DNA of 64,000 nt from Blastococcus sp. MG754426 (GTDB lineage: Bacteria; Actinomycetota; Actinomycetes; Mycobacteriales; Geodermatophilaceae), in contig NZ_SSXC01000006.1 in the NCBI RefSeq assembly GCF_021699055.1, positions 1 through 64,000 on the forward strand, read 5' to 3'. Positions 30,241 through 54,833 of this stretch are shown here, piece after piece. Every line of letters starts with the position of its first letter. Position 1 is the first letter of the stretch. Below the pieces are notes generated by a model, which was given only the letters and a program-made list of their open reading frames with translations, searched no databases and was not told the DNA's origin. The translations under genes and the position numbers were made by a program.

Positions 30241-30494
30241 CGTTTCGACCAGCTCGTATGCCAGTTATCCCAGCTCAGCAGTGCCTCGGCGCTGAGTTCG
30301 TGCCTCAGTGATACCGACCCCTGTTGGCCGCTGACCACCCGATTTGACCGGTGCTTAAGGCACGGATAAGGCACGACCTCGAGCGGCCCAAGCTGCAAAC
30401 GCGTTGTCCTATGACTCGCTGCACTGCCGGGTGAAACCGGCTCTTCTTACTCGAGGTGGCCGTCGGCTGGGCGTCAGGGCTCCGGGGATCGCCG
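30241..30494. other. junction between tRNA-Gly and accessory DNA
   Basis: No gene is seen. It contains short direct repeats of AAGGCAC (in the TTAAGGCACGGATAAGGCAC stretch, about 30,355-30,375) and GTGCCTC/GTGCCTCA near 30,280-30,310. Such repeats can be arm-type integrase sites, but no integrase gene lies in the window. Confidence 0.35.
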
Positions 30495-31490: not shown

Positions 31491-31496
31491 GACCAC

Positions 31497-31502
31497 ACCG
31501 TA
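31497..31502 (-). promoter_or_regulatory. -10 box of the PIN gene, leaderless layout
   Basis: Minus-strand TACGGT followed by 6 bases and GTG at 31490. Confidence 0.4.
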
Positions 31503-31522
31503 TGGCCTACCCAGGAGGCGAC

Positions 31523-31594
31523 ATGGCCCAGTTGACCGAGGAGCAGAATGCTCAGCGAGCGGCCGCCCGGCGCCGCACTGCCAGGCCGTCTTGA
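31523..31594 (+). CDS. tiny open reading frame, possible gene remnant
   Basis: A 23-codon frame starting MAQLTEEQNAQR and ending in an Arg-rich stretch. An AGGAGG lies 4 bases before the ATG, unusually good for this window. The polar Gln/Arg-rich start looks like the N terminus of a longer protein cut short, so it may be a remnant rather than a real small protein. Confidence 0.3.
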   Translation: MAQLTEEQNAQRAAARRRTARPS

Positions 31595-31975
31595 TCGCGT
31601 TCATAGCAGTTCGTCGCAGTTCCATAAGCCGTTTGAACAGCGGATAATTACGGCCGCGCACGGCGACGAATGACCGTGAACGCGGCCAACTGCAACCACA
31701 ACTGCAACCGGTTCTGGAGCGCAAGGGCGCCCGACCGGGGCCGTCCAAGACCTGAGTGATGTCACTAATCGGCGACGCAGCCGGTGAGTTGTCCAGCAAG
31801 ATCATGATACCGACGCCGGTTGAGGCGTCGTCGACGTCACGTAATACCGGCGTCCCCGCCATCGCGACCCGCGTTCGCTCCTCTGGCCCTGCGCTTGCCC
31901 TTGAGCCCAGAGAACCGAACCCGGCCCAGGTGCCATCACGGTCTGTACACAAATGGATCTGGTGGCGCCCGCGGG
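31595..31975. other. non-coding accessory DNA
   Basis: No convincing gene. It contains a direct repeat of AACTGCAACC (about 31,689-31,711), a related GCAGTT motif near 31,606 and 31,617, and lower GC than the core. It may be a decayed attachment or control region. Confidence 0.3.
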
Positions 31976-33112
31976 CTATCGGGCTTGGCGGAGCCCGTCG
32001 AGCAGTTCAGCTGCCATCTCTGCCGCGACATCCCCGCTGTGATCGATGACCGCACTCAGGGACACGGTCGCGGTCGGATGCATGACAGCAGCTGCCCCCG
32101 TCGTCATCCGCATAGTGCCTTGATGACGACCCCCCACCTTGGACGGATCTCCCTCGAAGACTCGGTCAAGGGGTGCCAGTGAAGCCGCAGGAGCCACTGC
32201 CGTGGTGTAAGAAGGCGCGACACTGGCCCCCAACACCATGAGACGCGAAAGCCTCCGCTGAAGATCGTCCCGGTTCACCAGAGCACCCATGAAATCGGTG
32301 GGGAGCGCCTCGAACACCGACACCTGTCCGCTCCTATGGACCAGAATTCCTCGATGTGTGGGCTCTTGACGGTCAGTGAGGAAGCCGCCGGCTCCTCCCC
32401 CACTCTGATTCGGCACCCATGACAAAGCCATCGCGGAGTTGCTCGCCGCCTTGACCGCATCGGTCTCTGCGAAAAATCCTGCGTCACGGGCGCTGCGGGT
32501 CAGAATTCCAGGGAGCCCCTGCAACTGCGTTGCCCGCAGCGGCTGTGCGCCTATCGGCACCAGGTGAGCATCAAGAACGGGACCATAGACCCCCGAGTCG
32601 CGGACGGCGGGCACATCCCAGCGCCAGACTACGGCCGGTGGCTCTGGCAACGTTGACCACTCGAGTGCAGCGGGGCCGAGTGACACTTCTGCTAACGCCG
32701 CCGTGACTGCCAGATTCAGCGTCAGCGGGTCTGCGAAGCTGCCTCTGAAGTAGCCATTGACGTAGGACTGCACCCGGGCCTTGAACTGCGCCTGACGAGG
32801 CTCGTCCTCTTCGTCGATAGTTTTGACGAACGCCAAGATCTCCTTGCCCAGACGTCGAGCGTGTTCGAACTCTTCCTCGGTGGGCGCCTTGCCAGTGTCG
32901 GGAAGGGCGTCGCCGTAGCGAGGGCCGAGCAGCAGTACATAGACGTCACACGCCTCTACGCCGGCGAGACACGCTTCCCGCGATGAGCGGCCCTGTGCTG
33001 TGAAGTCCTCGAAGCGCAGCGGCTGGTACGGCGGCACGACCTTCAGCTGAGCGGCGAGAGCGTCACGCTCGGCCTTCAGCGCGTAGGTGACCGACGAAAT
33101 GAAGACCTTCAT
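31976..33112 (-). CDS. DUF4062 domain protein
   Basis: A 378-residue protein. The N terminus MKVFISSVTYALKAERDALA is the DUF4062 signature, followed by ACDVYVLLLGPRYGD and PTEEEFEHARRLGKEILAFV, the conserved core of this TIR-like Rossmann domain (about 1-130). DUF4062 proteins often occur in defence genes as sensing or effector modules. The remaining 240 residues are not recognised. The ATG at 33110-33112 follows TAGCGT by 7 bases (leaderless); a longer frame to 33142 would include that box. Confidence 0.82.
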   Translation of the reverse strand: MKVFISSVTYALKAERDALAAQLKVVPPYQPLRFEDFTAQGRSSREACLAGVEACDVYVLLLGPRYGDALPDTGKAPTEEEFEHARRLGKEILAFVKTIDEEDEPRQAQFKARVQSYVNGYFRGSFADPLTLNLAVTAALAEVSLGPAALEWSTLPEPPAVVWRWDVPAVRDSGVYGPVLDAHLVPIGAQPLRATQLQGLPGILTRSARDAGFFAETDAVKAASNSAMALSWVPNQSGGGAGGFLTDRQEPTHRGILVHRSGQVSVFEALPTDFMGALVNRDDLQRRLSRLMVLGASVAPSYTTAVAPAASLAPLDRVFEGDPSKVGGRHQGTMRMTTGAAAVMHPTATVSLSAVIDHSGDVAAEMAAELLDGLRQAR

Positions 33113-33119
33113 GGCGGGG

Positions 33120-33125
33120 ACGCTA
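33120..33125 (-). promoter_or_regulatory. -10 box of the DUF4062 gene, leaderless layout
   Basis: Minus-strand TAGCGT, 7 bases, ATG at 33112. Confidence 0.5.
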
Positions 33126-33193
33126 GCGACCGGGGCTGACACATCGACGCCTCTGGCCCCTGGGATGTCACCCCCAGCTGCCAGGCTGGCCTC

Positions 33194-36160: not shown

Positions 36161-37114
36161 TCAGCTGACTTTCGGGAGCTTCGTCCGTTTGGTGCTACGC
36201 CGCACGACCGACGCCCCGAGGTCGTCGTGACTCACGAATGCGACTTCCGGGTGTTCCTCGAGAAGGGACTTGCCCCACTTGCCTAAGTCCGCTCCGATGA
36301 CGATCCCCTTCGTCGGTCGGCCGCCGGCGAGCTCGTTCCGAGCGTTGGCCATGTACCTCAGCACCTGACCGACGGTGTCTCCATTAACGGTGCGCGCCTT
36401 GAGTTCGACGACCACGTACTGCCCGCCGGCCTTGTCCCAGTAGACGAGGTCGGCCCGGGTTCGGTCGGCCCAACGGCGCTGCTGGTGGCGCAGCTCGAGC
36501 GAGTAGCCCAGCTTTCGCCAGATGTCCCCGTTGTCGACGAGGTACCGCTCGAGCGCAAGCTCGTCCTCCAACTCGCGGGCCCTGTGCTCGATCGCGGACC
36601 GGACCTCCTCCGGCCGCCGGTTCGTTAACCGGTCGAGGAGTCGCTTCCATATCGCATGGGGCACCCGGTGGACGGACCCATTGAAGTTGATCTTTAGTGC
36701 GGCCCACTCCGCCAGCGACGGGTCCGCCCTCATGGCCTCGATCGACAGCGGATGGCTGAACTTCTTGACGACGGTGTAGTCGCACCCGTGGGTGTTTCTT
36801 CCCGGGACCCCGTCGCCCGCCGAGAGCGGGTACGCGTCCGACTCCGCTCTGACGAGGTACGCGATGTCCTTGCGCTGTCTTGCCCGGTACAGGAGCGCCG
36901 GGTCGCCGAACCGCGTGTCGGAATGGCACGTCCACCAGCCTCGGGGGCCGTCGAACGACGCTGGGTCCAGGTCGGCTCGATCCCGGCCGTCGTCGTCCAG
37001 GTAGAACTCAGGTCCGGTGACCCAGAGCCACGCCTGTCCGGCCGTCGGGGTTGCGGAGGCGGCCCCGGTCCTCCGTTGAGCGCCGTTGCGACGGAGCCTC
37101 TCGATCCAGCTCAC
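36161..37114 (-). CDS. EVE-like domain fused to a NucS/DUF91-like nuclease
   Basis: A 317-residue protein. The N-terminal third has an EVE-like pattern: AWLWVTGPEFYLDDDG, DGPRGWWTC and DIAYLVRAESDAYPL. EVE domains bind modified bases. The C-terminal part is PD-(D/E)XK: RADLVYWD supplies the Asp, VVVELKA the ExK, and QVLRYM the downstream helix, as in NucS/DUF91 enzymes. Together this predicts a nuclease directed at modified DNA, probably phage defence. The GTG at 37112-37114 has a GGAGGAG six bases upstream; the TTG at 37120 is less likely. Confidence 0.75.
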   Translation of the reverse strand: MSWIERLRRNGAQRRTGAASATPTAGQAWLWVTGPEFYLDDDGRDRADLDPASFDGPRGWWTCHSDTRFGDPALLYRARQRKDIAYLVRAESDAYPLSAGDGVPGRNTHGCDYTVVKKFSHPLSIEAMRADPSLAEWAALKINFNGSVHRVPHAIWKRLLDRLTNRRPEEVRSAIEHRARELEDELALERYLVDNGDIWRKLGYSLELRHQQRRWADRTRADLVYWDKAGGQYVVVELKARTVNGDTVGQVLRYMANARNELAGGRPTKGIVIGADLGKWGKSLLEEHPEVAFVSHDDLGASVVRRSTKRTKLPKVS

Positions 37115-37212
37115 CAGCAACTCCTCCGGTCGTTGAGCGCGACATCACGTCAGCGGCTCAGCGGAGCTGCTGAATCAGCCAAGCTTGGCAGAAGCGGAGG
37201 GCGCCGCCGCCA

Positions 37213-39728: not shown

Positions 39729-40346
39729 GTGAAGTCCCGGCAACGCGTCAAGGTCTACGGCGAGGTCTTCACGCAGCGGCAGATGGTCAACACGATGCTC
39801 GAGTTGGTCCACGAGGAGCTGGAGACGGGCCCCGACTTCGTCGACAAGACCTTCCTTGAGCCTGCGGCGGGCGACGGCAACTTCCTCGTCGCGATCCTGG
39901 GCCGCAAGCTCCGAGCGATCGAGAAGCGGTGTGGGCCGGAGTCCTGGCTCGACGAGTCGCTGTTCGCCCTGGCCTCGATCTACGGGATCGAGCTGCTGGA
40001 GGACAACCATCGGGACGCCAAGGCGGCGATGTTCGCCGAGTTCCTGCGGTTCCATTCCAGCCACGGCGTTGCTTGCGGTTCGGGCACCAGGGCCGGGCGG
40101 GCCGCCGCCTTCCTGATCGACACGAACATCGTCTGCGGCGACACCCTCAAGGGTCTGGACTCGCACGGCGAGGAGATCCAGTTCTCCTGGTGGCACAGGA
40201 TCGCGGACATGCCCGGCATGGTCCAGCGGGAGCCCTTCGCACTCGCGTCGCTGCGCGGCGACGGCATGCTCGACTTCACCGACTACGGAACGTACGCGGT
40301 GAGCCGGATCGACCGTGTCCACGAGAAGGCCAAGGCCAGTGGCTAG
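39729..40346 (+). CDS. DNA adenine methyltransferase, N-terminal half (split)
   Basis: A 205-residue protein. It begins VKSRQRVKVYGEVFTQRQMVNTMLELV, the usual start of N6-adenine methylases of the Eco57I/type I M-subunit kind. Motif I is FLEPAAGDGNFLVAIL (about 43-58), which binds SAM, and NIVCGDTLKG (about 135) is the next acidic motif. It ends before the catalytic NPPY motif. That motif opens the gene at 43619. GTG 39729 has GGAGGAG about 7 bases upstream. The stop overlaps the next start by 8 bases. Confidence 0.8.
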   Translation: MKSRQRVKVYGEVFTQRQMVNTMLELVHEELETGPDFVDKTFLEPAAGDGNFLVAILGRKLRAIEKRCGPESWLDESLFALASIYGIELLEDNHRDAKAAMFAEFLRFHSSHGVACGSGTRAGRAAAFLIDTNIVCGDTLKGLDSHGEEIQFSWWHRIADMPGMVQREPFALASLRGDGMLDFTDYGTYAVSRIDRVHEKAKASG

Positions 40347-43300
40347 CCCGAAGATCAGGACCTTCCGCGAGGTGGTGCCCCTCATCTACTCGTGGAGGAC
40401 TCCTGACGTCCCCAAGTACTCGGGCTGGGAGAAGATCGGCTACACCGAGCAGGACAGCGCCGACGCCCGCATCGCCCAGCAGGCGAGCCAGATGTCGGTC
40501 GAGAAGCAGAAGGTCTGGTCTCGCCGTGCCTTGTTCACCACCGAGGCCGGAGGGCGGTTCACAGACACGGACTTCCACGCCTTCCTGAAGCAGCAGGGCG
40601 TGGTCCGAGAGACCGCTCCCAAGCGGACCGAATGGCACCGCTTCGCCGGCGCTCCTCGGACGTCGCTCGACTACTTGAACGACTTCGCAGGGCAGGACTT
40701 CGGCGACCTCCAGGCCGGCGGCGAAGACGACTACGTCCTCAGGCCGGAGCAGCGTGCCGCCGTGGACCAGGCCGTCGCGGCCTTCTCCGCAGGATCGGCG
40801 GAGGCACTGTGGAACGCGAAGCCCAGGTTCGGCAAGACGCTCACGGCCTACCACCTCATGCGGGAACTGGACGTCAAGACGGTCCTCATCGTCACCAACC
40901 GCCCCGCCATCGCGAACAGCTGGTACGACGACTTCACGCGCTTCATCGGCCACCAGACGACCTTCAAGTTCGTCTCCGAGTCCCCCTCGCTCGACGACCG
41001 TTCGCCCATGTCCCGCGAGCAGTGGCGCCATTTCTGCGCCGACCGTGCGGACGCCCGCGTCGTCGAGTTCGTCTCCCTCCAGGACCTCAAGGGGTCGCAG
41101 TACTTCGGCGGGTACTACCCCAAGCTCAAGCACATCGCCGACCTCCATTGGGACCTCCTCGTCGTCGACGAGGCCCACGAAGGCGTCGACACGACCAAGA
41201 CCGACATCGCGTTCGACCAGATCAAGCGCAGCCGGACCCTGCACCTGTCGGGCACGCCGTTCAAGGCGCTCGCGTCAGGAAGGTTCGCCTCCGGCGAGAT
41301 CTTCAACTGGACGTACGAGGACGAGCAGACCGCCCGCCGTGAGTGGGTTGGCGACGGCCAAGACAACCCCTACGCCGCACTGCCGACGCTCAATCTGCTG
41401 ACCTACCAGCTCTCCCGCATGATCACCGACCGCCTGGACGAAGGGGTGGCGATCGAGGGGGACGAAGCGAACGTGGACTACACGTTCGACCTCAACGAGT
41501 TCTTCAGCACCAAGGACAACGGCTACTTCGAGTACGAAGCCGACGTCATCAAGTTCCTCGACCGCCTCGCGACGAACGAGAAGTACCCGTTCTCGACCCC
41601 AGAGCTCCGGGACGAGGTCCGGCACTCCTTCTGGCTGCTCAACCGCGTCGCCTCAGCGAGGGCGCTGGAGCGCCTCCTCAAGGCGCACGAGGTCTTCAAG
41701 GACTACACCGTCGTCCTGGCCGCAGGCGACGGGCGCTCCGACGAGTCCGACCCTGCTGCCATCGGAAAGTCGTTGGGCAGGGTGCGGAAGGCCATTGCCG
41801 ACGCCGAGGCCGTCGGCGGAAAGACCATCACCCTGTCCGTGGGCCAGCTCACGACAGGCGTCACGGTCCCGGAGTGGACAGCGGTGATCATGCTGTCCAA
41901 CCTCACGTCGCCGGCCCAGTACATGCAGGCCGCCTTCCGCGCGCAGAACGCCTGCACCTTCGAGCGCGGCGGAACGGTCTTCCAGAAGCAGAACGCCTAC
42001 ATCTTCGACTTCGCGCCCGAACGAACTCTGACGATGTTCGACGCCTTCGCCAACAACCTCAGCCCGAACCCCTCGGGAGACCCCGGGGTGCGGCAGGAGA
42101 ACATCCGCAGGCTGCTGAACTTCTTCCCGGTCCTCGGTGAGGACTCCGAGGGGCGGATGATCGAACTTGATGCGGGGCAGGTGCTCGCGTTCCCGCAGGT
42201 CTTCAAGGCCCGTGAGGTCGTTCGCCGCGGCTTCCTGTCGAACCTTCTGTTCGCCAACGTCGCCGGCATCTTCCGCTACTCGGAGCACCTCAAGGAGATC
42301 CTTGAGAAGCTGCCCGCCGCGAAGGGGAACCGGGCCACCGCCGGGCAGACGATCGACCTGCCCGAGCCACCGCCCACGACCGACCGAGACGGCAACGTGC
42401 TGGTCGACGTGGAGACCGTCATCAACCCCAAGGTGGCAGAGTTCGGCAAGCCCGTCTGGCGCATCGAGGACATCCCAACAGCTGACTTCGACGCCCCGGC
42501 GACCAAACTGGCGGCGGACATCGCCAAAGTCGTGACCGAGCACGCTCGGGAGAAGCGCGACGAGCTCAAGGACGCGTACGGACTGACCGCCGGGCAGGTC
42601 GAACGGGACGAGAGGCGCACCGAACAGGCAGTGAAGGCGAAGGTCGAGCGTGCGCTTGCCGAGCAGGCCATCGCGAAGAAGCACCTGGCTGACGAACTAG
42701 CCGAGGCCGCGACCGAGGCCGAGGCGGCGGCCGTCGCGGCCAAGCGGGAAGAGCAGAAGCAGGCTTTCCAGAAGGACATCATCGCCATCGTCACCGCAAC
42801 GATGGACGAAGTCGTCCCTGAGGTGGTCACGCGCGAAGAGACGAAGAAGGAGCAGAAGCTCGCGAACCAGACGATGGACGACTGCCGCTCCCACCTCCGC
42901 GGCTTCGCGCGGACCATCCCGATGTTCCTCATGGCGTACGGCGATCGAGGCATGCGCCTCGCCAACTTCGACGACTACACGCCCGACGACGTCTTCCAGG
43001 AGATCACCGGTATCTCGGAGGAAGAGTTCCGCCTCCTCCGCGACGGACAGGACGTCGTCGAGGAAAACGGAACGACGACCAGGATCCCCGGCCTCTTCGA
43101 CGAGGCGGTCTTCGACCAGTCCGTCCAGGAGTTCCTGGACAAGAAGGAAGCGCTCGCCGACTACTTCGACGAGGAGCAGGTCGAGGACATCTTCGCGTAC
43201 ATCCCGCAGCAGAAGACCTCCCTTGTCTTCACGCCGCAGGCCGTCGTGAAGATGATGGTCGACTCGCTTGAGGCCGAGAACCCAGGCATCTTCAGTGACC

Positions 43301-43617
43301 CGGACAAGAAGTTCGCTGACCTGTTCTCCACCGCTGGCCTGTTCCTGATGGAGCTTGTGCGGCGGCTGGACACCGGCCTGGCCGCCAAGTTCCCGGACCA
43401 GGACGTGCGGCTACGGCACATTCTGACTTCACAGATCTTCGAGATGAGCCACAACGAGATCCTCCACGACATCACCATTGAAGCGGTCTCCGGTGGCAAC
43501 GCCGAACGCAGGCAATGGGTGAAGGAGTCTGGGCACTTCCGAGTCGGCAACCTCGCGCGGATGAGCCCAGCGGACCGGCAGAAGATGATCGGCGACATGC
43601 TGAGCGGAGATCGCTGA
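40339..43617 (+). CDS. GIY-YIG-like + SF2 helicase + methylase-motif restriction protein
   Basis: A 1092-residue protein. The N terminus reads VVPLIYSWRTPDVPKYSG then WEKIGYTEQD and ARIAQQ, a T5orf172/GIY-YIG-like nuclease pattern (about 8-50). A superfamily 2 helicase follows: Walker A PRFGKTLTAY (about 162), DEAH box VVDEAHEG (about 276), and the C-terminal helicase half with TTGVTVPEW (about 508). A Glu/Lys/Ala-rich coiled coil spans about 740-860. The end has FTPQAVVKMMVDSLE and FADLFSTAGLFLMEL (about 990), a second methylase-type motif I, without NPPY. It resembles type I R subunits joined to a methylase. GTG 40339 is preferred over 40315. Confidence 0.8.
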   Translation: MASPKIRTFREVVPLIYSWRTPDVPKYSGWEKIGYTEQDSADARIAQQASQMSVEKQKVWSRRALFTTEAGGRFTDTDFHAFLKQQGVVRETAPKRTEWHRFAGAPRTSLDYLNDFAGQDFGDLQAGGEDDYVLRPEQRAAVDQAVAAFSAGSAEALWNAKPRFGKTLTAYHLMRELDVKTVLIVTNRPAIANSWYDDFTRFIGHQTTFKFVSESPSLDDRSPMSREQWRHFCADRADARVVEFVSLQDLKGSQYFGGYYPKLKHIADLHWDLLVVDEAHEGVDTTKTDIAFDQIKRSRTLHLSGTPFKALASGRFASGEIFNWTYEDEQTARREWVGDGQDNPYAALPTLNLLTYQLSRMITDRLDEGVAIEGDEANVDYTFDLNEFFSTKDNGYFEYEADVIKFLDRLATNEKYPFSTPELRDEVRHSFWLLNRVASARALERLLKAHEVFKDYTVVLAAGDGRSDESDPAAIGKSLGRVRKAIADAEAVGGKTITLSVGQLTTGVTVPEWTAVIMLSNLTSPAQYMQAAFRAQNACTFERGGTVFQKQNAYIFDFAPERTLTMFDAFANNLSPNPSGDPGVRQENIRRLLNFFPVLGEDSEGRMIELDAGQVLAFPQVFKAREVVRRGFLSNLLFANVAGIFRYSEHLKEILEKLPAAKGNRATAGQTIDLPEPPPTTDRDGNVLVDVETVINPKVAEFGKPVWRIEDIPTADFDAPATKLAADIAKVVTEHAREKRDELKDAYGLTAGQVERDERRTEQAVKAKVERALAEQAIAKKHLADELAEAATEAEAAAVAAKREEQKQAFQKDIIAIVTATMDEVVPEVVTREETKKEQKLANQTMDDCRSHLRGFARTIPMFLMAYGDRGMRLANFDDYTPDDVFQEITGISEEEFRLLRDGQDVVEENGTTTRIPGLFDEAVFDQSVQEFLDKKEALADYFDEEQVEDIFAYIPQQKTSLVFTPQAVVKMMVDSLEAENPGIFSDPDKKFADLFSTAGLFLMELVRRLDTGLAAKFPDQDVRLRHILTSQIFEMSHNEILHDITIEAVSGGNAERRQWVKESGHFRVGNLARMSPADRQKMIGDMLSGDR

Positions 43618-43618
43618 C

Positions 43619-44674
43619 ATGAGCAAGAAGTTCGACGTCGTCATCGGCAACCCGCCGTACCAGGAAGAGGCCCAGGGCGGGGGCACACGCGACACCCCGA
43701 TCTATCACCTGTTCATGGATGCCGCGTACGAGGTCGGCAGCAAGGTCGTGCTCATCACGCCCGCGCGCTTCTTGTTCAACGCAGGCTTCACGCCCAAGGC
43801 GTGGAACGAGAAGATGTTGGCCGACGAGCATCTGAGCGTCGCTCACTATGAGCCTGACTCAAATCGTCTGTTCCCAGGGCTCTCGGACCCCATCAAGGCC
43901 GGCATCGCTGTTACGTACCGCGATTCGGAGCGCAAGCTCGGCCCCATCGGGTTCTTCACCGGACATCCCGAGCTCAACGCGATCCTGCACAAGGTCCAGG
44001 AGTCGGGATCCGCCTTCATCGACACCCTCGGCATCACGAGCTCACGCTCATACCGCTACACAGCCAAGCTGTACGAGGACCACCAACAGGCACTTGCCCT
44101 GCGCCCTGAGGGCAACCAGGCCCTGGTCAACACCAACGCTTTCGAGATGTTCTCGTTCCTCTTCCACGCGGAGAAGCCCAGCGATGGCAACGAGTACGTG
44201 CAGCTCCTCGGAGTGATTAGGAACAGGCGCGCGGCCCGCTGGATCCGCAGCGACTACATCACCGGCCCCGCCAGCTTCGACAGGTACAAGGTCTCGGTCC
44301 CAGCTGCGAACGGGTCGGGCTCGACAACTGACTTCTTCGGCGTCGCGTTGAACAACCCCACGGTCGTTGGGCCAGGTGTCGGGGTCACGCAGACCTTCAT
44401 CACCATCGGCTCGTTCGACGCCGAAGCCGAGGCGCAGGCGTGCATGAAGTACCTCAAGTCCAAGTTCGCGAGAACGATGCTCGGCGTCCTGAAGGTCACC
44501 CAGCACAACCCGCGAAGCACCTGGAAGTTCGTTCCGGCGCAGGACTTCACCAAGTCCTCGGACATCGACTGGTCGAAGTCGATCGCCGAGATCGACCAGC
44601 AGCTGTACGCCAAATACGGCCTTGACTCCGAGGAGATCGCCTTCATCGAGGCCAAGGTCACGCCGCAGGAGTGA
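43619..44674 (+). CDS. Eco57I-type methylase, C-terminal half with NPPY
   Basis: A 351-residue protein starting MSKKFDVVIGNPPYQEEAQG. NPPY (about 11-14) is the catalytic motif IV of N6-adenine methylases. VVLITPARFLFNAG follows, the conserved motif V/VI strand, and the rest looks like a target-recognition region. There is no SAM-binding motif I. It starts one base after the stop of the helicase gene. It must combine with a motif-I protein, either the 39,729 gene or the helicase C terminus. Confidence 0.85.
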   Translation: MSKKFDVVIGNPPYQEEAQGGGTRDTPIYHLFMDAAYEVGSKVVLITPARFLFNAGFTPKAWNEKMLADEHLSVAHYEPDSNRLFPGLSDPIKAGIAVTYRDSERKLGPIGFFTGHPELNAILHKVQESGSAFIDTLGITSSRSYRYTAKLYEDHQQALALRPEGNQALVNTNAFEMFSFLFHAEKPSDGNEYVQLLGVIRNRRAARWIRSDYITGPASFDRYKVSVPAANGSGSTTDFFGVALNNPTVVGPGVGVTQTFITIGSFDAEAEAQACMKYLKSKFARTMLGVLKVTQHNPRSTWKFVPAQDFTKSSDIDWSKSIAEIDQQLYAKYGLDSEEIAFIEAKVTPQE

Positions 44675-44752: not shown

Positions 44753-44890
44753 GAGGTCTGCGAGATCACGCTTCGCGTGTTCGCTGACAATGTGGCGGAC
44801 CACTACCACCGCCGCAGGCGCCAAGACGCCCTCGGCCGCATGACCCCCATCGAGTTCGAGACACTGACCCAGGCCGCTCACGCGGCCTGA
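44753..44890 (+). pseudogene. C-terminal fragment of an IS3-type transposase
   Basis: About 46 codons ending in YHRRRRQDALGRMTPIEFE and a stop, matching the end of IS3/IS150 DDE transposases (NRRRRHSALG...SPIEFE). The rest of the insertion sequence is missing, and no clear terminal inverted repeat was found. It shows that a mobile element once sat next to the restriction-like operon. Confidence 0.65.
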
Positions 44891-45423
44891 CCGCCCCTAC
44901 CGAACAGAGGCAACTGAAGTCCGGGCAGTCCCCATCGCTTGCCTACCGGCCGGTCGGGGTGGGCGGAAGTCCCATGTGGAGACAACGTGCGCCAACGCTC
45001 ACTTCTGGGGCGAGAAACTGACTCTCTACGCACATGGTTTCGGAAGCGCGTGTCCCATAGGCCGCCTTCAGAGACACCGCGCCCGTCATGCCGCACTCGC
45101 CACCACGCCTGATTCCGCGGTGTCTCATCGCGCGCGAACTGGCCGCCTCCCGAAGCTGGAGAACTGCAAGATCACGAGCCGACACACGTCTTGCATTTCG
45201 GCGGGCTGCTCGCCGGCAGTCTGCGGGCGAGGGGCAGAGGAAGGCGCCACCCCCGGTGGTGGCCTGCGGTCCGTGAGCGAAGTCTTGGTCGTCGCGCACA
45301 GAGATCCGTGTCAACTCCCCGACTCGGACAACGTCGAGGCCCTGGCCGGCGCTTCCGGGCCCCGGGGGCTACTGGAGAAGTACGGCAGTCCTAGTGGAGA
45401 CCGCCTTCCTACGGTCCGCAGGC
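44891..45423. other. non-coding region between transposase remnant and relaxase
   Basis: No convincing gene; frames here overlap in several readings. It carries palindrome copy C (45050-45077). It is a likely place for the origin of transfer, because it directly precedes the relaxase gene, but no nick site can be named. Confidence 0.3.
45050..45077 (-). repeat. palindromic element, copy C (inverted)
   Basis: Reverse complement of the 36089-36116 copy with 2 mismatches over 28 bases. It is opposite in orientation to copies A and B. Confidence 0.7.
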
Positions 45424-45426
45424 GTG

Positions 45427-48400
45427 ATGACGCTGCACAAGCTGACCGCCGGGGACGGTTACACCTATCTCACGCGACAGGTGGCGGCGTTCGATGCCAC
45501 GGAGCGGGGTCACGTCGGGCTGGGCGACTACTACTCGCAGCGCGGCGAGTCCCCGGGGAGGTGGGCTGGCAATGGCCTGCCCGGGCTCAGCGGAGTCATC
45601 GCCGGCCAGTTCGTCGGCGAAGACCAGATGAAGTCGCTCTTCGGTGAGGGTCGACATCCCGACGCCGACCGGCTCGAGCAGGACGCCTTGGCCGGCGGAC
45701 GGACGCCGGCGGAAGCACATGCCGCAGGATCTCTCGGGCGAGCCTTCTTCGTCTTCAGTGCTCGAGCCGACGGCTTCCGGGCGCGGTGCGCCCAGGGGTA
45801 CGCCGCCTTCAACGCTGCCCGCGGACAGCCCGCCACTACCCCGGTTCCGCACGATGACCGCGCGCAGATCCGCAGCGACCTGGCCCGGACCATGTTCACC
45901 GAGGCCTACGGCCGCGCTTGGCGCGATGCACGTGAGTTGTCGGGGTTCATCGCCCGAGTCTCGCGGCCGGCGACGACAGCGGTGGCCGGCTACGACCTGA
46001 CCTTCTCCCCGGTCAAGTCGGTCTCGGCGTTGTGGGCGTTGGCGCCGCGGGAGGTGGCCGAGCAGATCGAGGCCGCCCATGCCACCGCGGTCGCCGACGC
46101 CCTGGCCTGGCTGGAGGACAGCGCCTGCTTCACCCGGCTCGGCACCGACGGGGTGCGGCAAGTCGAGACCACCGGGCTGATCGCCGCGGTGTTCACGCAC
46201 CGCGACTCCCGCGCCGGTGACCCGGACCTGCACAGCCACGTGGCCGTGAGCAACAAGGTGCAGACCCGCGACGGGCGCTGGCGGGCGCTGGACGGGCGGG
46301 TGCTGCACAAGGCCGCTGTCGCCGCCTCCGAGCGCTACGACACCCGGCTGCAGGCGCACCTGGTCACCCGCCTGGGGATTCGATTCACCGACCGTCCCGG
46401 CATCACAACGGGCCGGCGGACGGTGCGGGAGATCGTCGGCATGGACCAACGCCTGCTGAGCGCGTGGTCGTCGCGGCGTCGGGACATCGACGCCCGGCGA
46501 GGCGTGTTGGCGGGCGAGTTCCAGCGCCACCACGGCCGGGCGCCCACGGCGGTGGAAGCGATCGGGCTGGCACAGCAGGCGACCCTGGAAACGCGCGGCC
46601 CCAAGCACGAGCCACGCTCTATCGGTGAGCAGCGGGCAACCTGGCGCCGAGAAGCCCTCGCCATCCTCGGCAGCCCGAATCGCGTCGACCGGATGCTGGG
46701 CCGGGTGCTGGGCGCGCGAGGGTCCCCGCGCCCGGGGGTAACCGAGGCCTGGGTCCAGTCGGCCGCCTCCCGGGTGCTGGACACCATCTCGGCTGGGCGG
46801 GCTACCTGGCAGATGTGGCACGTGTGCGCCGAGGTGGAGCGGGTAGTGCGGGCCGCCGCCCTGCCTCCCGCTGAGGTGGACGTCGCGGTCACCCGGGTCA
46901 CCGAGGAGGCGCTGTCCCCCGGCCTGTCCGTTCCCCTCGGTGAACGCGACCCGGTGGTCGAGCCGCCGGAGCTGCGCCGCTCGGACGGGGCCAGCGTCTA
47001 TACCGTCGCCGGATCCCGGCTCTACACCAGCCGGGCGGTGCTTGACGCCGAGGCGCTGCTGCTGGCGGCCGCGGGGCGCGGTGAGGGACGCCGCGCCGAT
47101 CCGGCCACGGTGGAGCTGGCGCTGCTTGAGTCGACGGCCAACGGCGCGGAGCTCAATCCCGGCCAGGCGCAGCTGGTCCGTGAGCTGGCCTGCAGCGGTG
47201 CCCGAATGCAGCTGGCCCTCGCCCCGGCCGGCGCTGGTAAGACGACCGCGCTGGCCACCCTGGCCCGCACCTGGACCGCCGACGGCGGGACGGTGCTCGG
47301 GTTAGCGCCCTCCGCCGTGGCCACCGCCGGGCTGCGGGCTTGTCTTGGTGCACCTTGCGAGACGCTTACCAAGCTCGTCTGGTGCCTCGAGGCCGGACAA
47401 GCACCCGACTGGGTGGCCGGCATCGGGCCGACGACGCTGGTGGTCCTCGACGAAGCCGGCATGGCCGGCACTGTCGAGCTGGCCCGCGCGGCCGAGTACG
47501 TCTTGGGGCGGGGCGGATCGGTGCGCCTGGTCGGCGATCACCAGCAGCTGACCTCGGTTGCCGCCGGCGGCCTGCTGGCCGAGATCGCCGCCACCCATGG
47601 CGCGGTCACCCTCACCCAGTTGGTGCGCTTCGATGACCCGGCGGAGGCCGCGGCGACCGTCGCCGTCCGGGAGGGCGACACCCTCGGGCTGGGCTTCTAT
47701 CTCGACTCCGGCCGGGTCCACGTCGGGGACCGGTCCACCTGCGCCGAGCAGGCCTACGCCGCCTGGGCCGCCGACCGCGACCGCGGTGTGGACGCGCTGC
47801 TGCTGGCCGCGACCCGGGAGCTGGTCGCGCAGCTGAACCAGCGGGCGCGGGCTGACCGGCTGACCCGCGCCGCCTCCTCGCCGGGTGCGGAGGTCGAGCT
47901 GGCAGACGGCACCCGGGTCGGCGCTGGGGACCCCATCATCACCCGCACCAACAACCGGCATTTGCCGATCACTGCCACCGAGTGGGTGAAGAACGGTGAC
48001 CGGTTCGCCGTCCGGGCCGTCGGCGGCGACGGCTCCCTCGACGTCGTGCACACGGACACCGGACGGCGGATCAGCCTGCCGGCGGGCTACGTCGCCGAGC
48101 ACGTGCAGCTCGGCTACGCGACTACGGTGCACGGCGCCCAGGGCGTCACCGCCGAGGTCTGCCACACCGTTCTCGGCGGCACCGAGTCCCGGCAGCTGCT
48201 CTATGTGGCGCTGTCCCGGGGGCGCGCCGCGAACCACCTATACCTGGCCACCATCGGCGACGGTGATCCGCACAGCATCGTCACCCCCGCCGCCGTGTCC
48301 CCGCCCACGGCCACCGACCTGCTGGTCGGCATGCTCGCCCGCGACGGCGCCCAGACCTCCGCGGCCGGCGCCCGCCGGGCACTGGCTGACCCGGCCGAGC

Positions 48401-50925
48401 TGCTGCACGAGGCCGCCACCCGGTACGCCGACGCGCTACACGTCGCCGCCGACCACCGCCTGGGTGCCGTGACTGCAGAAGAACTGGAGAACGCCGCCGA
48501 GCGCCTGCACGCCGGGTTGACCGCCGCGCCGGCGTGGCCGACGCTGCGCGGACACCTGGCGCTGCTCGCACTCAAAGGCTGCGACCCTGCCGCCGTACTG
48601 AGGACGACGGTCGAAGCGCGGGAACTGGAGACGGCGACCGACCCCGCTGCCGTCCTCGATCACCGGCTGCCCGTGTCGGGTCCGGCAGGTCCGCTGCGGT
48701 GGCTATCCGGGATACCGGCGGCACTGGTCGACGATCCGCGTTGGGGGCCCTATCTGACCGCCCGCGCCAATCACGTCATCGCCTGCGCGGCACGGGTCGG
48801 AGAGAACAGCGCCGGCATGACCGCGGCCACCGCGCCCACCTGGGCGAGACCGCTGCTGGGCCCGGATCACGGGTCGCTGCGTGCGGACCTCGCCGTCTGG
48901 CGCGCCGCGCTCAGTGTTCCCGACAGCGACCGGCGCCCCACCGGACCGCCCCGGCGGCAGGCTGCGGAACGCCAATCTCAGACACGCCTGGACGAGGCCG
49001 TAACCGCTACCGGCCCCACCCGGGACAGCTCCGTGTGGTCCGCCCTCGCCGACGGCATCGCCCCCCGCATCCGCCGCGACGAGCACTGGCCGGCACTCCG
49101 CGACCGGCTGGCCGCCGCCGACCGTGCCGGTCTAGATGCCGCCGGCATGCTCGCCGCCGTTGCTGCACAACGTCCCCTGCCCGACGACCTGCCCGCCGCG
49201 GCCCTGTGGTGGCGGATGGCACCCCACGTCGCCCCGGCCAGCGTTCCCGCTGGGCCGGGCACGGCCGGACCGCGCCCCGACTGGTGCACCACCCTGCTGG
49301 ACCTGCTCCCAGACCAGCAGGCCCAAGGTGTGCTGGCCGACCCGGCGTGGCCGGCGCTGGTCACCGCGGTCACCACCGGCACCCGCAACGGATGGCGTCC
49401 CGCCGACCTGCTCACCGCCGCACTCACCGGCCTGCCGCCCGCAGTGACCGACGACGCGGTTGGGCTGGCCGAGGCGCTGGTCTTCCAGATCGCCGCCCTC
49501 ACCGACCCGGCCCCCGTGCACGACCCCGAACCCCTGCCGGCCGATCTGCAGCCCCCCGACGATGCGCATCTACTGCCGCCCGTGCACGCACCCAAGACCG
49601 CCACCACTGACCCGGCGGACGGGCTGCCCTGCGACGAGGACGCGCCATTCGACCCCAACTACGACACCCCTCCGCCGGCGTGGCCGCCGCGGTATCGCAC
49701 GCCGGACCCCTTCACCGTCACCGGCGGGGTCGATGTCGCCGACGACGCCGACTACCTCCTCGAGCAACACTTCTGGGCCACCGCCATCGTTGGCCGCGAC
49801 CGGCTCATCGAGCTCAACGCCCAGGCCGCCGCCTTCTCCAGCGACCACTACCGCCACTCCTGGGCAGCGGGCTACCTGCACGACCGGCTGGGCACCGACC
49901 TCACCGCCGATCCCCGGTTCACCGCGGGCTACGCCCCCGCCGGCTGGACCGCGCTCGTCGACCACCTGCGCGGCCTCGGCGCCAGCGACCAAGAGCTGCT
50001 CGCCGCAGGCCTCGCCCTCCGCGCTCGCACCGGAGCGCTGATCGATCGGTTTCGCGACCGGCTCACCTTCCCCATCTTTAGCCGCGACGGCGTCATCGTC
50101 GGCTTCGTCGCCCGCCGCAACCCCACCGCACCCGACGACGGACGCGCCGGACCCAAGTACCTCAACACCCCGGGCACCGACCTGTACCGCAAGGGCGAGC
50201 ACCTGTTCGGGCTCCATGAGAGCCGAGCTGCGCTGGCCGCGGGAGCCACCCCGGCTCTCGTCGAGGGACCGCTGGACGCCATCGCCCTCACTCTGGCCGG
50301 TGGCGAACAGACCGTCGGCGTCGCCGCCCTCGGGACCGCCCTGACCGACCGACAAGCAGACCTCCTCGGCCCCTACATACGCCTCCACGGCCCCGGCATT
50401 CTCGTGGCCACCGACGACGACACCGCCGGACAGCAGGCCGCAGAGCGCATCTTCTGGCAGCTCTCCACCCGTGGGGACGACCCGCGCCGACTCGCCCTGT
50501 TCGACGGGCTCGATCCCGCCGACCTCTTCCACCGCGAGGGGGCCACCGCGCTACGGAGGGCCATCGACGCCTCGAGCAGCCTCGCCGACAACCTTCTCGA
50601 CGCCCGCCTTACCGCCGCGCTCTCCGACAGGAGCCCCGCAGCTCTCCGCGCAGCACTGCACGACGTCAGCGCCACCATCGTCGCCCTGCCACCCAGCCGG
50701 TGGCTGGCACACATCGACCGGGTCACCGAGGCTCTCGGCGTGCCGCCTGGCACCGTCCACAAGGCCGTGCTCGACACCGAACCGATCACCTCGGCGCCTC
50801 GCAGGACCCCGACTGGTCCACACCGGGCGCACCGCTCAACGCCCCCATACGCGGATCCTCAGCGGCCGGGTCAGACGGGACGGCCGTCCCACAGCACGCC
50901 ACCTGAGCTGCACCAACCCCGGTAG
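45427..50925 (+). CDS. MobF relaxase fused to helicase and TOPRIM primase
   Basis: A 1832-residue protein. The N-terminal TrwC-type relaxase begins MTLHKLTAGDGYTYL, has GYDLTFSPVKSVSALWAL, and the metal-binding His segment DPDLHSHVAVSNKV (about 263-276). A RecD-like helicase follows: Walker A APAGAGKTTA (about 597), LVVLDEAGM, and YATTVHGAQGVTAE. The last 500 residues are DnaG-like: a catalytic core (LTFPIFSRDGVIVGFVARR, KYLNTPGTDLYRKGEHLFGL) and TOPRIM motifs LVEGPLDAIAL (about 1612) and ATDDDTAG (about 1662). No zinc finger is present. It nicks oriT, unwinds the strand and may prime its replication in the recipient. GTG 45424 is an alternative start. Confidence 0.9.
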   Translation: MTLHKLTAGDGYTYLTRQVAAFDATERGHVGLGDYYSQRGESPGRWAGNGLPGLSGVIAGQFVGEDQMKSLFGEGRHPDADRLEQDALAGGRTPAEAHAAGSLGRAFFVFSARADGFRARCAQGYAAFNAARGQPATTPVPHDDRAQIRSDLARTMFTEAYGRAWRDARELSGFIARVSRPATTAVAGYDLTFSPVKSVSALWALAPREVAEQIEAAHATAVADALAWLEDSACFTRLGTDGVRQVETTGLIAAVFTHRDSRAGDPDLHSHVAVSNKVQTRDGRWRALDGRVLHKAAVAASERYDTRLQAHLVTRLGIRFTDRPGITTGRRTVREIVGMDQRLLSAWSSRRRDIDARRGVLAGEFQRHHGRAPTAVEAIGLAQQATLETRGPKHEPRSIGEQRATWRREALAILGSPNRVDRMLGRVLGARGSPRPGVTEAWVQSAASRVLDTISAGRATWQMWHVCAEVERVVRAAALPPAEVDVAVTRVTEEALSPGLSVPLGERDPVVEPPELRRSDGASVYTVAGSRLYTSRAVLDAEALLLAAAGRGEGRRADPATVELALLESTANGAELNPGQAQLVRELACSGARMQLALAPAGAGKTTALATLARTWTADGGTVLGLAPSAVATAGLRACLGAPCETLTKLVWCLEAGQAPDWVAGIGPTTLVVLDEAGMAGTVELARAAEYVLGRGGSVRLVGDHQQLTSVAAGGLLAEIAATHGAVTLTQLVRFDDPAEAAATVAVREGDTLGLGFYLDSGRVHVGDRSTCAEQAYAAWAADRDRGVDALLLAATRELVAQLNQRARADRLTRAASSPGAEVELADGTRVGAGDPIITRTNNRHLPITATEWVKNGDRFAVRAVGGDGSLDVVHTDTGRRISLPAGYVAEHVQLGYATTVHGAQGVTAEVCHTVLGGTESRQLLYVALSRGRAANHLYLATIGDGDPHSIVTPAAVSPPTATDLLVGMLARDGAQTSAAGARRALADPAELLHEAATRYADALHVAADHRLGAVTAEELENAAERLHAGLTAAPAWPTLRGHLALLALKGCDPAAVLRTTVEARELETATDPAAVLDHRLPVSGPAGPLRWLSGIPAALVDDPRWGPYLTARANHVIACAARVGENSAGMTAATAPTWARPLLGPDHGSLRADLAVWRAALSVPDSDRRPTGPPRRQAAERQSQTRLDEAVTATGPTRDSSVWSALADGIAPRIRRDEHWPALRDRLAAADRAGLDAAGMLAAVAAQRPLPDDLPAAALWWRMAPHVAPASVPAGPGTAGPRPDWCTTLLDLLPDQQAQGVLADPAWPALVTAVTTGTRNGWRPADLLTAALTGLPPAVTDDAVGLAEALVFQIAALTDPAPVHDPEPLPADLQPPDDAHLLPPVHAPKTATTDPADGLPCDEDAPFDPNYDTPPPAWPPRYRTPDPFTVTGGVDVADDADYLLEQHFWATAIVGRDRLIELNAQAAAFSSDHYRHSWAAGYLHDRLGTDLTADPRFTAGYAPAGWTALVDHLRGLGASDQELLAAGLALRARTGALIDRFRDRLTFPIFSRDGVIVGFVARRNPTAPDDGRAGPKYLNTPGTDLYRKGEHLFGLHESRAALAAGATPALVEGPLDAIALTLAGGEQTVGVAALGTALTDRQADLLGPYIRLHGPGILVATDDDTAGQQAAERIFWQLSTRGDDPRRLALFDGLDPADLFHREGATALRRAIDASSSLADNLLDARLTAALSDRSPAALRAALHDVSATIVALPPSRWLAHIDRVTEALGVPPGTVHKAVLDTEPITSAPRRTPTGPHRAHRSTPPYADPQRPGQTGRPSHSTPPELHQPR

Positions 50926-51066
50926 AGGTTCGGCTTCCGGGACGCGTTCACTCCCGGCAGCCGGGAGGACGCGCCACGGTCTGGGTCCCATCACTGTCGG
51001 GTGACAGTCCTGCGCCGCATGCCGCTTGTCCAGCGCTCGGTCATACCTCCCTGACAAGATGCGCTC

Positions 51067-51759
51067 ATGAACCGAGTCGCCCGGCTGGTGGACCGCCCGG
51101 TGTACTCGATGGCCCAGGTCGATCGCATCCTCGGTCTTCATGGCGGGACAGCCCGCCGGTGGATCGACGGCTACAACCGCGGAGCCAAGTCGTATCCGCC
51201 GGTCATCAGGCAGGAGCGGACCAACGAGGACACCGCCACGTGGGGCGAGTTTGTAGAGACTCGGTTGCTCGCGGAGTTCCGTGACGCCGGGGTGCCGATG
51301 ATCCGGATGCGGCCAGCGGTGGAACGCCTGCGCCGAGAGCTCGAAACGCCGTATCCGCTGGCCTCAGCGCGGACCTGGCTGTACGCGGAGGGTCAGGAAC
51401 TGGTCCGAGCGGTGCAAGACGAGGTCGGCCTCGACAGCGCGTTGCAGCTCGTCGTGGTGAGGAGCAACCAGCGTCTTCTCTGGTCTCAGCATGCCGAGTC
51501 GTTCCGGGGGTCGCTCGAGTGGACAGACGGCGATGTTCCTGAGCCCCGACTACTGCATCCCATGCCGGACATCGCTGAGGTACAGGTCGATCCGCTTCGC
51601 GGCTACGGGGAGCCAGTTGTTCGCAACGTCCCTACTGAGGTCATCGCAGAGCTGATCCGTGCGGGAGAAACGCCTGACTCTGTGGCAGACATGTACGAGC
51701 TGAATCGCTCGCTCGTCGACGCCGCGGTCCGGTACGAGCTGAAGCGCGCGGCCGCCTGA
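51067..51759 (+). CDS. DUF433-type antitoxin with HTH
   Basis: A 230-residue protein. The N-terminal MerR-like helix-turn-helix is YSMAQVDRILGLHGGTARRWIDGY. The C-terminal block PLRGYGEPVVRNVPTEVIAELIRAGETPDSVADMYELNRSLVDAAVRYE matches DUF433 antitoxins. It is followed after 6 bases by a DUF5615/PIN-like toxin gene. It would neutralise the toxin and repress the operon. Confidence 0.8.
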   Translation: MNRVARLVDRPVYSMAQVDRILGLHGGTARRWIDGYNRGAKSYPPVIRQERTNEDTATWGEFVETRLLAEFRDAGVPMIRMRPAVERLRRELETPYPLASARTWLYAEGQELVRAVQDEVGLDSALQLVVVRSNQRLLWSQHAESFRGSLEWTDGDVPEPRLLHPMPDIAEVQVDPLRGYGEPVVRNVPTEVIAELIRAGETPDSVADMYELNRSLVDAAVRYELKRAAA

Positions 51760-51765
51760 CGTCTC

Positions 51766-52179
51766 GTGGTGGCCGATCGCGAACGTCTGCGCTTCTACGT
51801 GGACGAGAGCGCGCTCGGGCTCGGCAAGGCTCTCACCGCCGCGCGCTTTGACACCGTTCATGTCGGCCATCCACTGATCCCCGAATGCCCATACGGCACG
51901 CTGGACCCCGACTGGATGCCAGCTGTGGCGGCGCGAGGCCTCATCGCCATTGGCCGGGACAGGCGAATGCGTACCCGGCCGGCCGAAGTGCACTTGATCC
52001 GGGAGTCGGGCCTGCGTGTCTTCCGGATCGGCGGCAAGCGGGATGAAACGACGTGGGGTTGGCTGACGTGGATGGTTCGCCGGTGGGACGACATCGAGGA
52101 GATCGTTGACACCAGGGGCCCAGGGCCATGGTGGTACGTCATCACCGAACGGTCAGTAAGGGAGTTGCCTTTGGCTTGA
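51766..52179 (+). CDS. PIN-like toxin (DUF5615/VapC45-type)
   Basis: A 137-residue protein starting RLRFYVDESALGLGKALTAARFDTVHVGH. The YVDES Asp, the IAIGRDRRM segment (where such toxins have a D/R core) and WWYVITERSVRELP at the end fit PIN-like toxins encoded next to DUF433 antitoxins. GTG 51766 or 51769 is the start. Probably an RNase toxin of an element-maintenance pair. Confidence 0.75.
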   Translation: MVADRERLRFYVDESALGLGKALTAARFDTVHVGHPLIPECPYGTLDPDWMPAVAARGLIAIGRDRRMRTRPAEVHLIRESGLRVFRIGGKRDETTWGWLTWMVRRWDDIEEIVDTRGPGPWWYVITERSVRELPLA

Positions 52180-52261
52180 GAAGCCCCCGCCGAATGGGGG
52201 CAACCGTCATGTCGGTACCCGGCTGCATAGTCAGGGCACCCCGAGTAAGTACGGAGTACCG

Positions 52262-53095
52262 ATGCCGGATCGCTTGTGGCTCGACGTGCCGTACGCCGAG
52301 AAGGACGCTGCCAAGGCAGCCGGTGCCCGATGGGATCCCGACGTTCGCCGCTGGTATGCGCCTCAGGTGGCACTGCTCCCGAAGCTCGCGCGCTGGGAAT
52401 CACGGATACCCGAGCTCTTGCCCGGGGAGGACCGCAGCTTCGGCCAAGGTCTGTTTGTCGACCTGGTGCCGTCGACTTGCTGGTTCACCAACGTCCGCAG
52501 TTGCGTCGACGAAGGCCAGTGGGACGCGCTCCGGTCCATGGTCTACCGCCGGGCCGGGCACCGCTGCGAGGCCTGCGGCGCTCCACGCGGCACTGACCGT
52601 CAGCGACTGGAAGCCCACGAGCGCTGGCAGTACGACGAGAGCACCTACACGCAGACGCTGCGGCGCCTGATCGCCCTGTGTTGGTCCTGCCATCGGGCGA
52701 CGCATTTTGGCTTCGCCGAGGTCACCGGCACCTCCGCCGAAGCGACCGCCCACCTTCGGGCGGTCAACGGCTGGTCACCCGGCGAAGCTGACGCCCACAT
52801 CGACCGCGCCTTCGCACTCTGGGAGAAGCGGTCGACCCATGAGTGGCGGCTCGACCTGGGCATCCTCACGAACGCCGGCATCAGGGTGGTCGAGCCCCCC
52901 GATCCCGGGCGTCGGACTGAGGAGAGCGCGACGCGCCTGGCAATCAAGATGCCGCTCCTGCCCACGTCGATACAGGGGGAACACGGCAGCCATACCGCCG
53001 CGGAGTACCGATGCGACGACGAAGGCCCCTCCGCACCCGAACCGCCCCGCAGAAAGCTGTGGGCGCGTATTCGCGGAGCTCTCACTAGTCAGTAG
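52262..53095 (+). CDS. DUF5710-HNH protein
   Basis: A 277-residue protein. The N terminus LDVPYAEKDAAKAAGARWDPDVRRWYAP is a DUF5710 domain (about 6-33), often found in conjugative-element primases. The middle has CEACGAPRGTDRQRLEAHERW and LCWSCHRATHFG, a zinc HNH-like fold with CxxC pairs. The C terminus is basic (PPRRKLWARIRG). It may be an HNH nuclease. Its end overlaps the convergent gene by 7 bases. Confidence 0.7.
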   Translation: MPDRLWLDVPYAEKDAAKAAGARWDPDVRRWYAPQVALLPKLARWESRIPELLPGEDRSFGQGLFVDLVPSTCWFTNVRSCVDEGQWDALRSMVYRRAGHRCEACGAPRGTDRQRLEAHERWQYDESTYTQTLRRLIALCWSCHRATHFGFAEVTGTSAEATAHLRAVNGWSPGEADAHIDRAFALWEKRSTHEWRLDLGILTNAGIRVVEPPDPGRRTEESATRLAIKMPLLPTSIQGEHGSHTAAEYRCDDEGPSAPEPPRRKLWARIRGALTSQ

Positions 53096-54426: not shown

Positions 54427-54428
54427 GA

Positions 54429-54725: not shown

Positions 54726-54833
54726 GGCGGCTCTCCTTCACTTGGTGGACTGCACCGAGGCTGGGTCGCCGCGGCCGGTGAGTGGGGATGTGGCGATCAA
54801 CCTGTGGATCGCGGCGGGGCTGTTTACGACCGG

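Follow-up and report, generated by a model that had tools for sequence, protein, structure and literature searches.

A putative DrdVI-family restriction-modification operon in Blastococcus with methylase parts distributed over three chains

Architecture of the operon

At positions 39729–44674 of a 64,000-nucleotide stretch of Blastococcus sp. MG754426 (contig NZ_SSXC01000006.1, positions 1 to 64,000 of the forward strand; here called the window) is a three-gene operon that, by homology, is a restriction-modification operon of the DrdVI split-methylase family, in a variant layout of this already named family. The three products together hold two cofactor halves of an adenine methylase, an intact and a degenerate one, and a single catalytic half. 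No frame is interrupted, neighbouring genes overlap or abut, the motifs are conserved, and all features of the operon described below are on the plus strand. Motifs are named here as X, I, II and III; their positions were computed.

Gene 1 (39729–40346; 205 residues, with a GTG start preceded by GGAGGAG and a TAG stop) encodes M1, the N-terminal half of an adenine methylase. Its motifs are, in order, an X-like GEVFT, the canonical S-adenosylmethionine (SAM) motif I FLEPAAGDGNF (39852–39884), motif II YGIE (39981–39992) and a III-like stretch, after which the protein ends; no NPPY is found in its sequence. A short M1 with a SAM motif and without NPPY is a trait of the DrdVI family, and gene 1 is 39.6% identical to DrdVI M1 (E-value 1e-31). 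Its match to Pfam MmeI_Mtase (8.8e-5) is below the Pfam cut-off, and a sequence search of the PDB with E up to 0.1 gave no match.

Overlapping gene 1 by 8 bases is gene 2 (40339–43617; 1092 residues, GTG start, TGA stop), which encodes R joined to the N-terminal half of M2. The protein begins with a GIY-YIG-type nuclease domain (40339–40713, border approximate) containing the pattern KIGYT (40432–40446), followed by a superfamily 2 (SF2) helicase-like motor (40714–42258, border approximate) with a Pfam ResIII match (1.3e-15) and the motifs GKT, DEAH, SGTPF and AAFRAQ. Behind the motor, the conservation profile reveals a variable linker and then a better conserved stretch (42259–43173). The C-terminal stretch, referred to here as g2C (43174–43614), resembles a methylase N-terminal half, with FTP and the motif-I-like FADLFSTAGLF (43312–43344). 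In the residue numbering of the 1100-residue open frame of gene 2, residues 19–664 match DrdVI R (31.7% identity, E 6e-79) and residues 958–1088 match residues 26–176 of DrdVI M2, its N-terminal half (27.9%, E 8e-13).

The GIY-YIG assignment, proposed from a pattern in the initial annotation, holds for the gene 2 family, and the window's own protein stays below threshold (MUG113, E=0.012). In a scan of 29 of the 70 aligned gene 2 N-termini, with E up to 1, 25 matched MUG113 (best 8.1e-8) and 19 matched T5orf172 (best 9.8e-11), both members of the GIY-YIG clan. D75 and E97 of the domain are invariant among the aligned N-termini and are candidates for its catalytic residue. Gene 2 has the GIY-YIG domain fused to a translocase that characterizes R in the DrdVI family. 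A GIY-YIG profile search of the PDB returned just two unrelated, chance-like matches, and genes 2 and 3, used as PDB sequence queries at E up to 0.01, returned none.

Gene 3 (43619–44674; 351 residues, ATG start, TGA stop) follows after a 1-base gap and encodes the C-terminal half of M2. It opens with MSKKFDVVIGNPPY; its start, with VVIGNPPY, corresponds by homology to strand β4. The β4–β7 part (43619–43948, borders by homology; NPPY at 43637–43663) precedes a putative target-recognition region (43949–44518), least conserved around residues 120–210, and a C-terminal tail (44519–44671); no motif I or other SAM motif is found in the sequence. Gene 3 matches Pfam Eco57I (3.8e-16) and residues 211–544 of DrdVI M2 (29.0% identity, E 3e-34). 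The modules of M2, a degenerate N-terminal half, an NPPY half and a recognition region, are all present, on two chains here and on one in DrdVI. PADLOC model PDLC03626 (1359 residues), which matches both the gene 2 motor (1.3e-17) and the end of gene 3 (3e-24), is a first sign that genes 2 and 3 can be one chain.

The initial annotation, made from the letters and open frames alone, had the motifs of all three genes, the length of gene 2, the overlap and the gap correct to the base, and the Pfam matches and the recurrence of the three-gene order in related loci show that these features are not due to chance. Its proposal of a restriction-modification machine with a methylase assembled from parts is supported. 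None of the findings that it had named as fatal to this idea was made: gene 1 is without NPPY, gene 3 is without a SAM motif, and the GIY-YIG domain is recognizable at the family level.

Cofactor and catalytic halves

Counts of motifs were taken from aligned columns of related loci, replacing earlier regular-expression counts that were partly circular. Of the gene 1-type halves (g1), 75 of 75 keep the first Gly of motif I and close motif II with an acidic residue; the second Gly of motif I is replaced by Ala in 11 of them. The g2C halves lack both residues without exception (0/72); at the first-Gly position is Thr (41/72) or Lys (31/72), and at the acidic position Ser, Ala, Gly, Thr, Asn or Val. 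Three diverged g2C halves outside the 72 counted (L086–L088) likewise have Lys at the first-Gly position. Catalytic halves of the gene 3 type (g3) start with NPPY or NPPF in 72 of 75 cases, and in the remaining three (L052 at a contig end, L076 and L085) the matched stretch starts behind the NPPY motif. The counts of 75/75 against 0/72 thus describe a system in which g1 is the intact cofactor half and g2C a degenerate one, with g3 as the sole catalytic half.

Both cofactor halves occur in nature fused to a catalytic half, and one fusion of each kind was modelled with AlphaFold. The natural g1–g3 fusion from locus L054 is predicted to adopt a complete adenine methylase fold, and the natural g2C–g3 fusion from locus L045 a complete methylase fold of the same kind, so that in both models the joined halves form a complete N6-adenine methylase fold of the gamma type. 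The two pairings were folded separately and not as the L054 chain with g2C, g1 and g3 together. In mixed alignments for that chain, ordinary gene 1 rows were placed in the g2C columns or not at all, and g2C rows were missing from the single row set that aligned gene 1 well.

Distribution and module arrangement

Gene 2 is matched (E up to 0.001) in 18 of 296 genomes sampled from the phylum, a count that includes the window's own genome and three marginal cases; at 51 loci of the species collection, one of them the window's own; and in 83 of 72,556 plasmid and 9 of 50,697 phage records. The operon occurs across many genera with strong conservation. In 22 other genomes of the window's genus, no gene 2 match was found at E up to 1e-20, and this absence suggests that gene 2 was acquired.

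To map module order, 77 motor-bearing loci, including that of the window, were cut into open frames and searched with profiles for g1, motor, g2C and g3. Owing to their collection via the motor, these loci are uninformative on g1 or g3 elsewhere, and the wide profiles behind the layout counts were built from the same loci and are to that extent circular. Less circular evidence for the CGEAP-type g1 in g1–g3 fusions comes from an actinobacterial gene 1 profile, with values of about 1e-4 to 1e-14.

All four modules are present in 73 of the 77 loci, with g3 fused to g1, to g2C or to neither. The layout of the window, g1 / motor-g2C / g3, is that of 39 loci, its own included; two others (L033 and L061) are similar with frame oddities. 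The DrdVI order, g1 / g2C-g3 / motor, is found in 13 loci, among them DrdVI, and an R–M2 fusion, g1 / motor-g2C-g3, in six. Genes 1 and 3 form one chain in the layout g1-g3 / motor-g2C of L050, L051 and L078 (with two further loci, L057 and L079, in which g3 is apparently broken) and in L054, where a single chain comprises motor-g2C-g1-g3. The layout g1 / g3 / motor-g2C is seen in two loci and in two more with a broken motor (L076 and L084), and L086–L088 have g1 / motor-?-g3, with the diverged g2C (EINSKTGLY or DINSKTGLY) visible by eye. Four loci are incomplete: L052, L063 and L064 at contig ends, and L047, broken in gene 2 and without g3. The g1 half is present in 75 of 77 loci, the exceptions L052 and L064 both being cut by contig ends. 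A 78th locus, pTEF3 (L092), has the g2C-g3 piece alone. The complementarity of genes 1 and 3 supposed in the initial annotation is borne out by the four one-chain loci and the L054 model; its choice of either 1+3 or 2+3 as the pairing is not, as both occur as natural fusions.

Several observations were made alongside this survey. In the genome that contains L054 (G296), a 1312-residue open frame on another contig has a stretch 65% identical to the L054 g3, probably a second system. Gene 1 is matched (E up to 1e-3) by 55 phage records, including 28 Synechococcus and 11 Klebsiella phages, and the phage family profile PHROG 11371 matches gene 3 in mid-profile and gene 1 behind it, in reverse order, so this family may be a circularly permuted methylase; a scan of viral contigs with the L054 g1–g3 stretch found nothing. 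Public record SPQJ01000003.1 (L016), an identical contig, bears the label 'Bacillus sp. AZ43' (unverified), against which stand a GC content of 64–77% and the actinobacterial origin of most close relatives of gene 2.

Gene 3 as an exchangeable unit

Pairwise identities among the 39 loci of the window's layout (741 pairs, Mantel test) are coupled between gene 1 and the motor (r 0.63, p 0.0005). Residues 1–110 of gene 3 are uncoupled from both gene 1 (r 0.01, p 0.44) and the motor (r 0.01, p 0.41) and strongly coupled to the recognition region of gene 3 (r 0.70). The mean identity of these residues is 0.73 (motor, 0.77), which rules out saturation as the cause. Residues 215–349 retain weak coupling to gene 1 (0.25) and to the motor (0.18). 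When the proteins are taken in 60-residue steps, motor coupling ranges from 0.44 to 0.84 along gene 2, the steps within the motor being in part self-comparisons, and from –0.04 to 0.08 across gene 3 residues 1–300. The gene 3 tail tracks genes 1 and 2 again (residues 301–350; 0.43 with gene 1, 0.34 with the motor).

DNA identity was profiled for four pairs chosen as extremes. Loci L022 and L034 are 0.81 to 0.95 identical over most of gene 2, 0.63 at its end and 0.46 in mid gene 3; identity is back at 0.87 in the final step of the gene, beyond which the downstream DNA is unrelated; L018 and L082 follow the same pattern. The pairs L016/L020 and L020/L029 have the reverse pattern, with gene 3 closer than gene 1. 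Together, the step couplings and pair profiles indicate an exchanged block that seems to start late in g2C and to end near residue 300 of gene 3, and judging from these identities gene 3 is exchanged between related bacteria as a cassette. In loci of the DrdVI order, where M2 is whole (n=12), the coupling to the motor is 0.97 for the M2 N-terminal half and 0.44 for the catalytic part; the contrast is weak among the seven closest of these loci (0.49 and 0.36), and the samples are small. The lower coupling of the catalytic part in this order implies that the module border is not special to the layout of the window.

Origin of the arrangement

Compared with DrdVI, M2 is divided at the β3/β4 border and its N-terminal half rides on R. 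A tree of 44 motors was built after thinning the 39 rows of the window's layout to 14 and excluding broken or cut loci other than L057, L063 and L079, which retain a sufficiently long stretch of the motor. In this tree, which is midpoint-rooted and has flagged long branches, the window's layout forms a single clade (99/91) sister to the R-g2C-g3 fusions L045 and L066, and the DrdVI layout forms a separate clade (100/100). According to the initial annotation, a single methylase gene had been interrupted by insertion of the motor gene, an account to which the one-chain genes 1 and 3 of some relatives lend some credit. The last 150 residues of gene 2 and gene 3 are, however, homologous to one protein, DrdVI M2, with gene 1 separate there. 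Owing to this homology and to the sister position in the tree, the layout of the window is likelier to have arisen by a break of a fused R–M2 chain at the β3/β4 border; the motor gene was probably not inserted into a methylase gene, and we consider insertion very improbable.

Flanking DNA

Just behind gene 3 is a short frame (about 44762–44890, plus strand) ending in ...YHRRRRQDALGRMTPIEFE..., which resembles the end of an IS3-family transposase. Further downstream is a gene for a 1843-residue TrwC-type relaxase (45394–50925, plus strand) with AAA_30 helicase and DnaG/Toprim primase domains on one chain. Homology to another species of the genus (G319, L094) starts at 45368, directly after the operon: the stretch 45368–50367, in the relaxase gene, is 96.9% identical over 5,003 aligned bases, and the adjoining 13,734 bases (50267–64000) are 100% identical, reflecting either a conjugative element that was transferred recently or a mixing of assemblies. 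Upstream, a gene on the minus strand (36161–37120) has an EVE domain (2.8e-5) and NucS/YhcG-like nuclease matches below cut-offs, and is possibly a second defence gene nearby that senses modified bases. Farther upstream (30167–33142), a tRNA-Gly borders on DNA of lower GC that contains PIN_12 and DUF4062 genes, a possible left edge of an integrated island.

Discussion

The reading that we favour, and regard as rather probable, is that of a DrdVI-family system in which genes 1 and 3 together methylate and genes 2 and 3 together find sites for restriction. Gene 1 would bind SAM and join gene 3 to form the adenine methylase that marks self DNA; this pairing is the likely methylase because the intact cofactor half is that of gene 1. 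Gene 2 would bring the GIY-YIG nuclease, an ATP-driven motor and the degenerate copy of the cofactor half, and by docking on gene 3 through g2C would deliver nuclease and motor to the same target sequence. In such a complex, g2C would complete gene 3 without methylating, yielding a site-reading head for the motor-nuclease. Marking and cutting should both use gene 3, as no other recognition region is visible, and for the same reason replacement of gene 3 would change both specificities together. Such shared use agrees with the finding that gene 3 alone is swapped while genes 1 and 2 stay constant. More tentatively, the system may act as a modify-or-restrict switch, in which gene 1 and a dead g2C compete for a shared gene 3 in mutually exclusive pairings and specificity is replaced by a swap of gene 3; the two pairings would exclude each other because both use the same β4 edge. 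We hold this switch to be possible, with less than even confidence.

Several points weigh against a division of labour of this kind. A degenerate motif I is no proof that g2C has lost cofactor binding, and in the window's layout the g2C halves (41 of the 72) have a Glu two residues ahead of the usual acidic position. Both models are of fusions from other bacteria, where covalent linkage favours pairing. Residues 1–110 of gene 3 show a weak link to g2C (r 0.23, p 0.0045) and none to gene 1, which alone would favour the pairing of genes 2 and 3, although the link would arise equally from exchange borders that lie within the end of g2C. The sources consulted treat M1 and M2 jointly, as a cloned pair for MaeIV and undistinguished for DrdVI, so that not both need be required. 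An invariant Asp sits at the GIY-YIG position expected for the catalytic Glu, and for this reason cutting is not assured.

Were g2C to bind SAM despite its odd motif, genes 2 and 3 could form the catalytic methylase, with gene 1 as an accessory or regulatory SAM-binding subunit. This arrangement would agree with the single g2C–g3 chain in DrdVI M2 and 18 other loci (the 13 of DrdVI order, DrdVI included, and the six R–M2 fusions), with the whole methylase predicted for L045 and with the weak linkage of gene 3 to g2C. We nevertheless consider it distinctly unlikely: the two residues kept in every g1 half are missing from every g2C half counted, the g1 half is absent only from loci cut by contig ends, and the g1–g3 fusions L050, L051 and L078 leave g2C on the motor. 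A single fixed three-chain complex, with genes 1 and 3 as the methylase, g2C docking on another face and no exchange of partners, is harder to set aside, although we still think it rather unlikely. All four modules are on one chain in L054, gene 3 is covalently tied to gene 1 in the g1-g3 / R-g2C systems, and Type I and Type III enzymes are likewise fixed complexes; the predicted g2C–g3 fold, however, is of the same kind as that of g1–g3 and would by homology use the same β4 edge, making docking elsewhere unneeded. Least probable of all the alternatives is that the operon is decayed or re-purposed cargo of a conjugative element (for example, for anti-restriction) and not a working restriction system. 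The adjoining TrwC relaxase gene, the transposase-like remnant between them and the Asp in the GIY-YIG domain could be taken in this sense, but the open, overlapping or abutting frames with their conserved motifs, the strongly conserved operon in many genera and the site-specific methylation by relatives speak against it.

If genes 1 and 2 do share gene 3 as favoured here, an old question, how marking and cutting keep identical specificity during evolution, would seem to be answered by a half-enzyme that both must borrow. The β3/β4 border of adenine methylases would then be a natural joint between modules, at which chains have been fused, divided and fused again in the course of evolution, and neighbouring plasmid annotations of 'N-6 DNA methylase', 'DEAD/DEAH helicase' and 'Eco57I methylase' would be united as one system.

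Relation to known systems

The family is already named after DrdVI and MaeIV and is known in print from brief mentions. M1-2.DrdVI is listed as a IIG enzyme with site GCAGCC and N6-methyladenine (m6A) modification (PMC6430315). The authors of MaeIV of Methanococcus aeolicus report an M1–M2 with specific m6A at GCACY and place it in a 'so called split methylase/RM' family similar to DrdVI; MaeIV is likened to the operon here through this description of the family. A paper on Bibersteinia describes an inactive relative with one gene, frameshifted or in several frames, whose N-terminus is like M1 and whose C-terminus is like M2, and terms DrdVI a fused translocase and nuclease; the counterpart of this fused protein in the inactive relative has a GIY-YIG domain (PMC4996451). 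A literature search, mostly excluding subscription papers, found no description of two N-terminal halves sharing one C-terminal half, or of exchange of the C-terminal half.

The DrdVI-order relative is on plasmid pDrdVI of Deinococcus wulumuqiensis 479. M1, R with its GIY-YIG domain and translocase, and both parts of M2 are homologous between the two systems, at the four identities given above, and the order differs: DrdVI has M1 / M2 / R with M2 whole, whereas in the window the N-terminal half of M2 is on R and the C-terminal half is a separate gene. Between the methylase halves of DrdVI M2 (L089:2795–4438) is a CxxC...H...FIH stretch, zinc-finger or HNH-like by eye; by eye, none like it is seen at the junction of genes 2 and 3.

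The IIG-like systems of the OspHL35III type also combine a methylase with target-recognition domain, a translocase and a GIY-YIG nuclease, but their methylase is MmeI-like and the translocase and GIY-YIG are on separate proteins. Type ISP enzymes such as LlaGI and LlaBIII carry an Mrr-family nuclease and a single methylase on the same chain, in contrast to the GIY-YIG domain, three chains and two N-terminal halves found here, where the N-terminal domain family matches T5orf172 and MUG113. In Type I systems (HsdM/HsdS/HsdR), one exchangeable gene carries the specificity for both modification and restriction, and its product HsdS is not known to have a catalytic part. Gene 3 differs from HsdS in bearing the NPPY catalytic half along with the recognition region.

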